A stretch of 64,000 nucleotides of DNA, from the NCBI GenBank assembly GCA_039696685.1, contig CP155566.1, forward strand, positions 2,542,001 to 2,606,000, read 5' to 3'. Shown here in pieces: positions 1,647-63,213 of the stretch. Each line of letters starts with the position of its first letter. Position 1 is the stretch's first letter. Source of the DNA: Vibrio sp. CDRSL-10 TSBA. Lineage in GTDB: Bacteria; Pseudomonadota; Gammaproteobacteria; Enterobacterales; Vibrionaceae. Below the pieces are notes generated by a model that was not told the origin of the DNA, did no database searches, and was given only the letters and a program-made list of their open reading frames with translations. Position numbers and translations under genes: made by a program.

Positions 1647-3624
1647 TTAAGCGTAATAACTGATTCCATCACGCTTTGCAGCCACATTCAAATCAAGTTT
1701 GACGTCTGTATCAAGGTTTTCTTCACCAGCAAAACGCTCGTTGCCTGAGGATTGACCGGATTGACCGCCACCACCTGCCGCATAACGCTGTTGCTGGCCT
1801 GAACTTTGTTGTTGCACCGAGGTATCTCCAAGCTGAACACCTTGTTGAGACAACATTTCTCTCAGGCGCGGCATAGAGTGTTCCAGCGCATCACGCGCCT
1901 GGTTGCTGGCAACGGTGAACTGTACGTTGGCTCCGTCACCATGCATGTTCATGCGGATGTGGAGACGACCCAGCTCAGGCGGATCGAGACGAATATCGAT
2001 CTGCTTGAGGTTTTTAGACATCATCATCTGGACCCGTTGTGCCATATCATCCACATCCATTTCCTTACTCAGATGCAACGGCATCTGCGGCTGAGCCTGA
2101 GTTTGTTCTGCACGCAGGTTGGACGAAGTGGTATTCATGCCCTGCTGACCAGCAGCCGCTGCCACTTGGTTAGCAAAAGCGGAGTCCTGACCAGGCTGAC
2201 CTGTTTTACTGTTAGTCAGCTTGCCTATCCCGCTACCGGCGAGTGCGGCCTTTAATCCGGCCGGGCTGAGACTCTCGGTTTGTGCCAGCATTGCCGGGTT
2301 AAGCGCCGGATTTACGCCAGCCGGATTGGCAGCGTTGGTTGTGACAGTCGCGCCATTAGTGGCATCCTGGACCGGTACGTTATGAGTTGACGCGCCGGCT
2401 TGCTGAGCCGGTTGTTGCTGCGCTGCGCTGGCCGGGTTATGGTGCCCCGGCTTAATTTTGTCTGCTTGCTCAGAGGAGAGCAGTGTGGTCTGAGCGCTGG
2501 CAGGATCCGAACCCGCAGCAGCTGCAACACCTTGTGCCACAGCGGTTAACTGCAGCGCATTGTCAGCAGAAACCTGACTATCTGACCGCTGGATCGGGAG
2601 TGGTGATGAATCAGCCGTCACTGGCACAACGCCAGGCGCGGCGTTACCTTTACCTTGCACAAGCTGCGCTAAGCTCTGGCTATCGGCAGCAGATTGAATC
2701 TGAACGTCTCCCGACTGGTTGGCAGCGCTGAGTGCATGATCCGCAGACGAAGACTGAGCCGACTCAGCGCTCAAAGCTGCAAGAATCGCCGCAGCCTGCT
2801 GCGGTGTCAGCTGTTGCAGTTTCCTCTGAGCTCATCTGGTCATCTAATCCCAGTCTGGTTAACTCCTCGGCCAGTAACTGAGTGACCTCTGAACCCTGCT
2901 CAGGATTGAGCGGAGTAACGGGCGCGGTTAGCAGAGCGTTGTCCGTTATAGTACTGCTCAGCATAGCCTTTGCGCTCATCGGGCTCACAGCCTGACCGGA
3001 TTCCGACGCAACGCGCAATAACCCTTCATCTTCAGTATTAGTTCTGCTTGCAGTCTGCCCGGGTAACGGAGGCAAAGTTTTGCCGTTACTGGCAGCCAGT
3101 GCCTGATTAGCCTCTTTTAAACGGCCTATCAGCGCATCGCCGTCACTCATGACTTGCTGGGTTGTGGCATGCAGCGCTTGCTTGCCGTCACTTTCGTCAA
3201 CAATAAAGCGTTGTAAATTCTTAGGAATATCTGGCTGCGCATCCGTTGCCTGCCCTTTGGCTGACGGAGCCTGCTCATCACCGCTTGCCGCGGCATGCGC
3301 ACTGCCCTGAGTATTTTGACCAGGCAAAGCATCACCGTCGCCTTGTTCGAGCAGCGCTGCAGCCTGCTTGTCTTGCGCAGACAGCTTATCTTGCGTAGAC
3401 AACTTATCTTGTACAGACAGCACCGCAGCTTGTGACTGCCCGGCCGTTTTTTTTGCATCACTTGATTCGCTCTGTTCAGAGGCGCCAAACAGCAGAGCCG
3501 ATAATTTGCTCAAAAAGCCGGAGTTTTCCCCGCTTTCATCCTGCTGAACCAGTTGTCCAGCAGACTTAGCCACACTGGTGGCTTTGCTATTATCAGCAGC
3601 AGATGAGGTTGAGTTGACGTTCAT
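1647..3624 (-). CDS. fliK: Flagellar hook-length control protein FliK (frame break at 2820-2822)
   Basis: Two overlapping frames together make one FliK of about 658 residues. The N-terminal part (start 3624) is low-complexity, rich in Ser, Gln, Ala and Asp, as is usual for the ruler domain. The C-terminal part carries the Flg_hook domain (LDPPELGRLHIRMNMHG, about 100 residues from the end) that switches export specificity. The frame breaks at 2820-2822, where GTTC appears as GTTTC. Removing one T joins SSEELQQLTPQQAAAIL to the downstream half, a natural FliK sequence. The break is therefore probably not a real mutation. It heads the fliKLMN group. Confidence 0.88.
3371..3421 (-). repeat. 18-bp tandem repeat inside fliK
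   Basis: Three in-frame copies of an 18-bp unit (starts 3371, 3389 and 3407, the last partial) encode repeated S-x-Q-D-K-L residues in the ruler part of FliK. The copies differ by one to three bases. Copy number could alter ruler length. Confidence 0.75.
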
Positions 3625-3766
3625 AATTACTTAGCTCGTATATCAGGCTGCACACCTTAAAGGCAGCGAATCCACTGTCACGCACACAACTGCAGCGAAC
3701 AGCACTTTGTATTTAGTCTGCAGAGATGAGACTCACGGATAACTTTGCCTCATCTGAAAATTAATT

Positions 3767-3811
3767 CTCTACAAATTACTACTCTACAAATTTAAACTCT
3801 GCAAAATTTAC
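3767..3811 (-). repeat. Three 15-bp direct repeats at the fliK promoter
   Basis: Units starting CTCT(A/G)CAAA on the plus strand begin at 3767, 3782 and 3797 with an exact 15-bp period. They overlap the sigma-54 promoter and continue into the transcribed leader. This is a plausible activator (enhancer) site, but no protein can be assigned from sequence alone. Confidence 0.6.
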
Positions 3812-3816
3812 GCCAA
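3800..3816 (-). promoter_or_regulatory. Sigma-54 promoter for fliKLMN
   Basis: Minus-strand TTGGCGTAAATTTTGCA has the GG-N10-GC spacing of -24/-12 sigma-54 promoters, with the strong TTGGC and TTTGCA elements. It lies 176 bases before the fliK start. In Vibrio, fliK operons are sigma-54 class III genes under FlrC, which agrees. Three 15-bp direct repeats (3767-3811) overlap it and extend downstream. Confidence 0.72.
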
Positions 3817-3838
3817 GCACGTCAATGGCCTAATAAAC

Positions 3839-61258: not shown

Positions 61259-61288
61259 AGCGCTTCATCTTCGGATGAGGCGCTTTTT
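61259..61288 (+). terminator. Intrinsic terminator after prs
   Basis: AGCGCTTCATC, TTCG tetraloop, GATGAGGCGCT followed by T-run. Confidence 0.9.
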
Positions 61289-61517
61289 TGTTTGCTGGCG
61301 ATGTGAGTTTACTGGCGGTATGAGTTTACTGACGGTGCGAGATTGACACCTGACGCGGCATATTTGCTGAGCAAGCCATTAGCTCACGGATACCCAGCGT
61401 CTCGTTGACACTCAGCCTCTCATTTAGCCGCATCGCGCACGAAAATGCAGAGTATCGCCCCACGGCGCTTTTCTGTGCTATCATACCGCGCTTTTTGTTT
61501 CCGAAGGGATCCTAGCC
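61289..61517 (+). other. Gap between prs terminator and pth
   Basis: No gene seen. It contains two 17-base-period direct copies of TGAGTTTACTG(G/A)CGGT at 61304 and 61321. The pth promoter must lie in its last part. Confidence 0.5.
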
Positions 61518-62109
61518 TTGAGTCAACCAATTAAATTACTGGTCGGTCTGGCCAATCCGGGACCAGAATACGCCAGGACACGCCACAATGCCGGTGCATG
61601 GGTGGTCGAAGAAACTCGCGCGCATTCACAATGTGGTACTCAAAAATGAACCAAAATTCTTTGGTTTAACCGGTCGAATCGTCGTTAACGGCGAAGATCT
61701 GCGTCTGCTGATCCCAACGACCTTTATGAACTTATCCGGTAAAGCCGTGGCCGCACTGGCCAAGTTTTACCAGATAAAACCGGAAGAGATCATGATCGCG
61801 CACGATGAACTCGATCTTCCTCCGGGCATTGCTAAGTTTAAACAAGGTGGTGGTCATGGCGGCCACAATGGTCTGAAAGACACCATCAGTAAACTGGGCA
61901 ACAACAAAGAATTTTACCGTCTGCGGATTGGCATCGGCCATCCCGGACACAAAGATAAAGTAGCAGGCTATGTGTTGGGTAAAGCTCCGGCTAAAGAGCA
62001 GGAGTGTCTGGATGCAGCAGTGGACGAATCCGTTCGTTGTCTCGACATCTTAATCAAAGATGGCCTAACAAAAGCGCAAAACCGCTTACACACGTTCAAA
62101 GCTGAATAA
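61518..62109 (+). CDS. pth: Peptidyl-tRNA hydrolase Pth (frame break at 61612-61614)
   Basis: About 196 residues after correction from TTG 61518. The N-terminal KLLVGLANPGPEYARTRHNAG with the catalytic His is present, as is the substrate Asn/Asp region (HDELDLPPG, GGHGGHNGLK). It frees tRNA from drop-off peptides. The frame breaks where GAAC appears as GAAAC; the corrected join is WVVEELARIHNVVLK. Essential. It is followed by ychF. Confidence 0.94.
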
Positions 62110-62120
62110 GGTTTACAGTC

Positions 62121-63213
62121 ATGGGTTTTAAATGTGGCATCGTTGGTCTACCAAACGTTGGTAAATCAACACTTTTTAATGCACTAACAAAAGCAGGTAT
62201 CGAGGCGGCAAACTTCCCGTTTTGTACCATCGAACCAAACACAGGTGTCGTTCCGGTACCGGATCTGCGTCTAGACGCACTGGCAAACATTGTTAACCCA
62301 GAGCGTATTCTGCCAACCACGATGGAATTCGTTGACATCGCGGGTCTGGTTGCAGGTGCATCAAAAGGTGAAGGTCTGGGTAACAAATTCCTGGCTAACA
62401 TCCGTGAAACTGACGCGATCGGTCACGTTGTACGCTGTTTCGAGAACGAAAACATCGTTCACGTTGCGGGTAAAGTCTCTCCGATTGAAGATATCGAAGT
62501 GATCAACCTGGAACTGGCTCTGGCTGATCTGGACAGCTGTGAGCGTGCAATCCAGCGCCAGGCAAAACGTGCCAAAGGCGGTGACAAAGACGCTAAATTC
62601 GAGCTGACCGTGCTGGAAAAACTGCTGCCAGTGCTGACTGAAGGTGGTTCTGCCCGTACTGTGACTCTGTCAAAAGAAGAGCTGGCAGCCATTGGTTACC
62701 TTAACTTCCTGACTCTGAAGCCGACCATGTACATTGCTAACGTGTCTGAAGACGGTTTTGAAGACAACCCGTATCTGGATGCTGTACGTGAATTCGCAGC
62801 CAAAGAAAACAACGTTGTGGTTCCGGTTTGTGCCGCGATCGAATCTGAGCTTTCAGAACTGGAAGAAGAAGAGCGTGACGAATTTCTGGCGGATCTGGGT
62901 ATCGAAGAACCGGGCCTGAACCGGGTTATCCGTTTCTGGTTACGATCTACTGAACCTGCACACTTACTTTACTGCAGGCGTTAAAGAAGTACGCGCCTGG
63001 ACTATTCCTGTCGGCGCAACGGCTCCGCAAGCAGCGGGTAAGATCCACACCGACTTCGAGCGCGGCTTCATCCGTGCTGAAGTAGTGGGTTACGATGCTT
63101 ACATCGAGTTCAACGGTGAAAGCGGCGCGAAAGAAGCGGGTAAATGGCGTCTGGAAGGTAAAGATTACATCGTAAAAGATGGCGATGTTATCCACTTCCG
63201 CTTTAACGTTTAA
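62121..63213 (+). CDS. ychF: Redox-regulated ATPase YchF/Ola1 (frame break at 62933-62935)
   Basis: About 363 residues after correction. The G1 motif GLPNVGKST and G3 DIAGLV are present; the specificity loop is NVSEDG in place of NKxD, which explains ATP rather than GTP binding. A C-terminal TGS domain follows (AAGKIHTDFERGFIRAEV). It binds ribosomes. The frame breaks where GTTC appears as GTTTC; the corrected join is NRVIRSGYDLLNLHTYFT. Confidence 0.94.

Follow-up and report, generated by a model that had tools for sequence, protein, structure and literature searches.

Frame breaks at GTTTC/GAAAC in a Vibrio genome probably reflect base-calling insertions at phosphorothioate-marked GAAC/GTTC sites

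The window considered here is a 64,000-nucleotide stretch of Vibrio sp. CDRSL-10 TSBA (G000:C2:2542001-2606000, where G000 denotes the Vibrio genome under study, of 4.9 Mb in two contigs), and it runs from a flagellar block through genes such as galK, galE, dapE and bamC to hemA, ispE, pth and ychF, with four tRNA genes clustered at its end (63544-63990). The genus includes a genome that matches Vibrio mytili without a difference over 4.7 kb at one locus, and a test protein of G000 reaches 74% with its best named match. A first-pass annotation of this stretch had listed 25 frame breaks, had held that all of them share one tetranucleotide context and that no break of another kind occurs, and had attributed them to a GAAC/GTTC-specific DNA modification, of the Dnd type or a new one. 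The pentamer GTTTC or GAAAC, referred to below as the core, is indeed found at 25 of the 25 sites, with the triplet named for each beginning at its second base. The names hemA, ispE, pth, ychF, bamC and bepA are confirmed by family searches of the separate pieces; those of the chemoreceptor, perM, DUF2066 and ybaK, together with the flagellar names, are taken from the first-pass annotation.

Frames were analysed by pieces, alignment positions and counts, with reference open reading frames of three relatives, and then a wider set of 2552, being aligned and the frame changes located by local frame-aware alignment. Aligning the proteins of relatives to the window recovers 16 of the 25 sites as frame joints (Table 1), that of bamC (37627) through a single reference source. 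At five more sites (18095, 23484, 29738, 33733 and 36180) the two pieces, searched separately, fall on adjoining parts of one family profile, and at 21973 the pieces in two frames match successive flagellin domains. A frame break accordingly stands, by relatives or family profiles, for 22 of the 25 sites, and is not established for 2820, 31847 and 35313. At the first of these, in fliK, the N-terminal piece matches no family; at the other two, in galK and at the first dapE site, the core lies within the first residues of the gene. Five further joints are called within the window, of which four rest on one reference source. At 62114 a joint is called by seven sources; it falls in the interval separating pth from ychF and was set aside as an artefact of the reference reading frames. 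All non-core joints of the window are single-source or artefactual and the wider non-core rate is that of the background (see below), in agreement with the statement that breaks of another kind are lacking.

Table 1. Cores and associated frame joints in the window, and the dnd-dpt island (window positions, unless a contig is given)
Feature	Position	Strand	Basis
Flagellar stretch, nine cores (fliK, fliF, flrC, flrB, flrA, fliD x2, two flagellins)	2819..21976		six by relatives, two by family profiles; N-terminal fliK piece without family match
Dyp-type peroxidase, GAAAC core at frame joint	23483..23487	-	TIGR01413 1-71 (weak, E 0.00027) + 64-322, two frames
galR-like gene, GTTTC core at frame joint	29737..29741	+	profile 1-106 + 107-331
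galK 5' end, GAAAC core	31846..31850	-	only first residues missing
galE, GAAAC core at frame joint	33732..33736	-	profile 2-113 + 106-338
dapE 5' end, GTTTC core	35312..35316	+	core within first residues
dapE, GTTTC core at frame joint	36179..36183	+	profile 3-290 + 290-370
Six cores at scanned joints: 37626 (bamC), 42126 (chemoreceptor), 43542 (perM), 45870 (bepA), 48695 (DUF2066), 50921 (ybaK)	37626..50925		scan; bamC and bepA also by family
hemA joint, core GTTTC on +, GAAAC on coding strand	57959..57963	-	12 reference sources; profile 2-210 + 210-415
ispE, GTTTC core at frame joint	59658..59662	+	12 reference sources + family
pth, GAAAC core at frame joint	61611..61615	+	11 reference sources + family
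ychF, GTTTC core at frame joint	62932..62936	+	9 reference sources + family
Island: dptF, dptG, dptH, DGQHR gene, dndE, dndD, dndC, dndB + Dnd-associated methyltransferase TIGR04096	G000:C2:1196009-1213540		

With regard to the genome at large, 212.6 kb was aligned out of 844 kb taken; most of the scattered 20-kb stretches aligned little, and a genome-wide claim draws on three regions and a few genes. The enrichment for GAAC/GTTC proposed from the window extends to this larger sample, in which 59 of 71 joints lie at a core, including both of those in the 2.7 kb aligned on contig C1. When only joints with at least two agreeing sources are counted, 45 of 46 are at a core and all 46 are of the +1 type (one base too many), the sole non-core example sitting between the pth and ychF frames. 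This is far beyond chance, because a core lies within 12 bases of just 5.5% of random aligned bases (binomial p 9e-56). An unprompted count of pentamers at the two-source joints likewise returns GAAAC (strands merged) as the commonest, at 45 of 46, against a background of 3.4%. Core joints occur at 27.75 per 100 kb in G000 versus 0, 0.7 and 1.4 in the relatives G009, G005 and G011; the corresponding non-core figures are 5.6 (12 joints) versus 5.2, 3.9 and 1.4, and the non-core joints of G000 are thus at background rate. Within sequence aligned by at least two sources, G000 has 46 agreed joints in 166.0 kb and a second Vibrio genome, G061, has 18 in 96.5 kb, and no two-source joint was found in the three relatives over 193.9 kb (64.9, 64.3 and 64.7 kb). 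Over their whole 646.8 kb, part of which has a single source, these relatives show 30 joints, 3 of them at a core. The 264 kb surrounding the window give a ratio of GTTTC+GAAAC to GTTC+GAAC of 0.378 and the window itself one of 0.345, compared with 0.249-0.283 in the three relatives.

The modification cassette to be expected elsewhere in the genome under the first-pass proposal is present as a dndBCDE-dptFGH island (Table 1), and two of the G000 joints lie inside its dptH and dndD genes. The DndC sulfurtransferase scores 550 bits with TIGR03183 (cut-off 290); DndB, DndE and DndD beside it are matched by TIGR03233 at 481 bits (328), TIGR03184 at 87 (71.85) and TIGR03185 (245.85), the last split into adjoining pieces of 246.7 and 234.7, and dptF, dptG and dptH by TIGR03238, TIGR03236 and TIGR03237 at 476, 313 and 1285 bits, these three all above cut-off. 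Aligned to DndC of E. coli B7A, the G000 protein is identical at 370 of 530 residues, and carries Thr-Arg-Ser (TRS) from residue 141, opposite residues 140-142 of B7A, within a loop, GYPAPTRSFRW, that is the same in both. Thr-Arg-Ser in this loop is the reported signature of GAAC/GTTC systems (PMC12193691). Of the 227 genomes in the genus, 21 have DndC, G000 included, and its presence alone would therefore be met by chance about one time in eleven, making the loop and flank tests the sharper ones. Surveyed across the order, DndC occurs in 19 of 394 genomes, again including G000; across the class, dptH was found in G000 alone (1/369 genomes).

Among the DndC proteins of the genus in which the loop motif was found (n=20), 19 have TRS; the loop of G061, missed by the motif search, is also TRS, from residue 141 as in G000. 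The remaining protein, that of G212 (G212:C1:1913231-1914778, L147), has Thr-Lys-Ser in place of Thr-Arg-Ser. Several DndC matches (L149/L154, L150/L155, L152/L157, L153/L156; G721:C1:3910978-3912798) stop at residue 359-361 and restart at 363-364, with a gap of approximately 180-200 bases that stays within a single open frame of 609-626 amino acids, as if a segment of around 60 residues had been inserted. A core also splits a hybrid sensor kinase gene adjoining the dnd island (L070:13864-16288) into two frames.

The share of aligned GAAC/GTTC-type sites that are misread is 59/1722 (3.4%) in G000 and 22/673 (3.3%) in G061. Published figures lie close to these values: nanopore calls in Salmonella Cerro 87 covered 3.9% and 4.4% of motifs (PMC9069010), and single-molecule real-time sequencing of dnd-positive S. 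piezotolerans WP3NR gave 4.05/4.48% (PMC8569181). Misread sites also have characteristic flanks, the base preceding the core being A or C on 85 of 118 sides in G000, compared with 1537/3326 at intact GAAC/GTTC (p 3e-8) and 467/1008 at the 504 other aligned GTTTC/GAAAC cores, which carry no joint (p 1e-7); in G061 the figures are 39 of 44 misread sides versus 627/1302 (p 4e-8). The misread rate climbs with zero, one or two favourable flanks from 5/465 through 23/892 to 31/365 in G000 (1.1, 2.6 and 8.5%), and from 0/166 through 5/348 to 17/159 in G061 (0, 1.4 and 10.7%). By the restriction-based EcoWI-seq, modified GAAC/GTTC sites are reported to have preferentially A/C in front of the core and T/G behind it (PMC9521924). 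Taken as a proxy for modified sites, the misread sites show this same partial use with A/C before and T/G after, as in systems of the GAAC/GTTC type.

Judged from the sequence, it is highly probable (roughly 0.88) that the GTTTC/GAAAC frame breaks of G000 arose in base calling, as insertions at GAAC/GTTC sites which its dndBCDE-dptFGH island would mark with phosphorothioate. DndCDE would set sulfur into a minor fraction of the sites, as GpsAAC/GpsTTC; a native strand read in a nanopore would give a disturbed signal there, and the basecaller would add one extra A or T in most reads, such that the consensus keeps the surplus base. In the cell, the seemingly broken genes would in that case be undamaged, and the G000 assembly is probably of nanopore origin. 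Nanopore reads are reported to err at both synthetic and natural phosphorothioates, with the signal disturbed over several bases, and error-based nanopore calls to fall 25-fold in a dndC deletion (PMC9069010). The GAAC/GTTC-specific, Dnd-type modification put forward in the first-pass annotation is supported by the island, the DndC TRS loop, the flank match and the repetition of the pattern in G061.

This second genome, of the same genus and also in two contigs, is dnd-positive, and its own DndC is split in two frames. In 101.6 kb aligned, 22 of its 24 joints are at a core, as are 17 of the 18 with at least two sources; the remaining two-source joint is a -1 at a non-core place. No evidence that single sites are conserved between G000 and G061 was obtained: two distinct genes are broken in both genomes (each via two references), at different residues. 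A survey of rpoC, made independently of dnd, matched 224 of the 227 genus genomes, seven of them more than once. Both G000 and G061 have rpoC breaks at a core, four dnd-lacking genomes among the seven are broken at other contexts (see below), and the hypergeometric probability of both core-affected genomes being dnd-positive is 0.008. By estimate, at about one core joint per 3.6 kb rpoC would miss an affected genome around one time in three, and affected genomes without dnd are unlikely. Another of the seven, G078, has no joint and carries two rpoC-like genes on one contig (C5:8155-12198 and 151348-155049; L254, L261), the second of which matches profile positions 1-1032 only.

Several observations weigh against the phosphorothioate explanation. 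G061 was first noticed because its dndC is split, and its dnd-positive status is in part a product of selection, the rpoC survey being the unselected test. Nine other dnd-positive Vibrio regions (of 19 other dnd-positive genomes) have no +1 joint at a core; a -1 call near a core was obtained in G219, and many-source joints at other contexts in G212. Since most of the other scanned dnd-positive regions carry the TRS loop too, loop and island together are not sufficient. Similarly, of 5426 E. coli genomes 204 have dndC, and in ten islands taken from 60 listed among these the dnd/dpt genes shown are annotated as intact in 10/10 (with dptF cut off by the stretch), and E. coli thus supplied no second species group bearing the signature. 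Sequencing platform, polishing or repository filters must explain such unaffected genomes. The outer (-2) preference for C is weak (p 0.017 in G000, 0.052 in G061), and an in-vitro study reports no flank effect on Dnd activity (PMC4515589), which raises the possibility that the flank preference may act in the cell only. Finally, a statement that insertion is the usual nanopore error at phosphorothioate was not found in the published text consulted.

Of the alternatives, the one that survives best is another mark at GAAC/GTTC, for instance methylated bases set by the island's Dnd-associated methyltransferase or by an unrelated enzyme. The methyltransferase (TIGR04096) is common to both affected genomes, and nanopore errors caused by modification have been published at other motifs (PMC10687267); despite this, the loop of DndC and the preferred flanks agree with phosphorothioate, and the Salmonella nanopore errors at GAAC/GTTC depend on dndC (PMC9069010), leaving this explanation improbable. 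Modification by the Ssp system, which gives CpsCA on one strand, would be expected at CCA, and the cores observed here are GAAC/GTTC; no search for SspBCD genes was made.

That the breaks are ordinary errors of long-read assembly, from homopolymers or polishing, is very improbable. Indels do occur in other Vibrio assemblies, as in G110 (L255), G153 (L257), G090 (L258) and G001 (L260), which lie outside the 21 dnd-positive genomes and together have nine rpoC joints, none of them at a core and 7/9 of the -1 type, pointing to ordinary assembly indels. Such deletions are absent among the 46 two-source joints of G000, and its non-core joints are no more frequent than background. Random homopolymer errors should, as the first-pass annotation had argued, spread over many runs, yet the joints concentrate on one context, although the aligned sequence contains 13,594 A/T runs of length two and 1,693 of length four and above. 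Equally improbable is that the extra bases are real, through programmed frameshifting or true pseudogenes, as the assembly letters would have it if taken as they stand: the broken genes include hemA, ispE and pth as well as the RNA polymerase genes rpoB and rpoC, which makes real inactivation implausible, the core on the coding strand at the joints is GTTTC in 33 cases and GAAAC in 26, which no ribosomal slip signal would explain and from which the cause must act on DNA rather than on messages or translation, and the 504 joint-free cores are read without a break.

When compared with described systems, the Dnd system itself is of the known GAAC/GTTC kind. Like the systems by which E. coli B7A and Salmonella Cerro 87 make GpsAAC/GpsTTC, it has the genes dndBCDE and dptFGH, a TRS loop in DndC, a GAAC/GTTC core affected at a minor share of its sites, and A/C...T/G flanks; it differs in that the G000 system is known via assembly errors, from which the sulfur is deduced, and in that its island adds TIGR04096 and a DGQHR gene. 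The Dnd system of Vibrio tasmaniensis 1F-267 (GAAC/GTTC; PMC12193691) is, by its description, of the same genus and motif type. With regard to detection, the ELIGOS nanopore work likewise records dnd-dependent read errors at GAAC/GTTC, but does so by comparing native with modification-free reads (PMC9069010), whereas here a consensus-level +1 signature is drawn from finished assemblies alone. Modification-mediated nanopore assembly errors have been described that are similarly concentrated on one motif of an untrained mark (PMC10687267), although the motifs there are GCAGC and GCTGG, the errors were counted as mismatches, and 'phosphorothio' and 'dnd' occur 0 times in the text. An assembly-level +1 signature was not found in the literature searched, which excluded preprints and covered subscription journals thinly. 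What seems new, within that literature, is the signature in finished assemblies, and a flank rule that agrees across two Vibrio genomes and Salmonella.

If the phosphorothioate explanation is correct, users of the G000 assembly would be misled on gene content and pseudogene counts, with approximately 1,300 false breaks over 4.9 Mb should 27.75 core joints per 100 kb hold throughout, a figure extrapolated from unevenly sampled sequence. The selection of so few sites by Dnd is said to remain a mystery (PMC9521924). The breaks would likely serve as a rough map of the sulfur mark. It is rather more plausible than otherwise that finished public assemblies hold readable phosphorothioate maps, in which a +1 at GAAC/GTTC denotes a heavily used Dnd site, and that, with two Vibrio genomes sharing the [A/C]GAAC[T/G] or [A/C]GTTC[T/G] of Salmonella, a conserved six-base word largely sets target choice across Dnd systems. 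The signature would thus allow phosphorothioated strains to be found, and Dnd site choice to be studied, from data that are already public.

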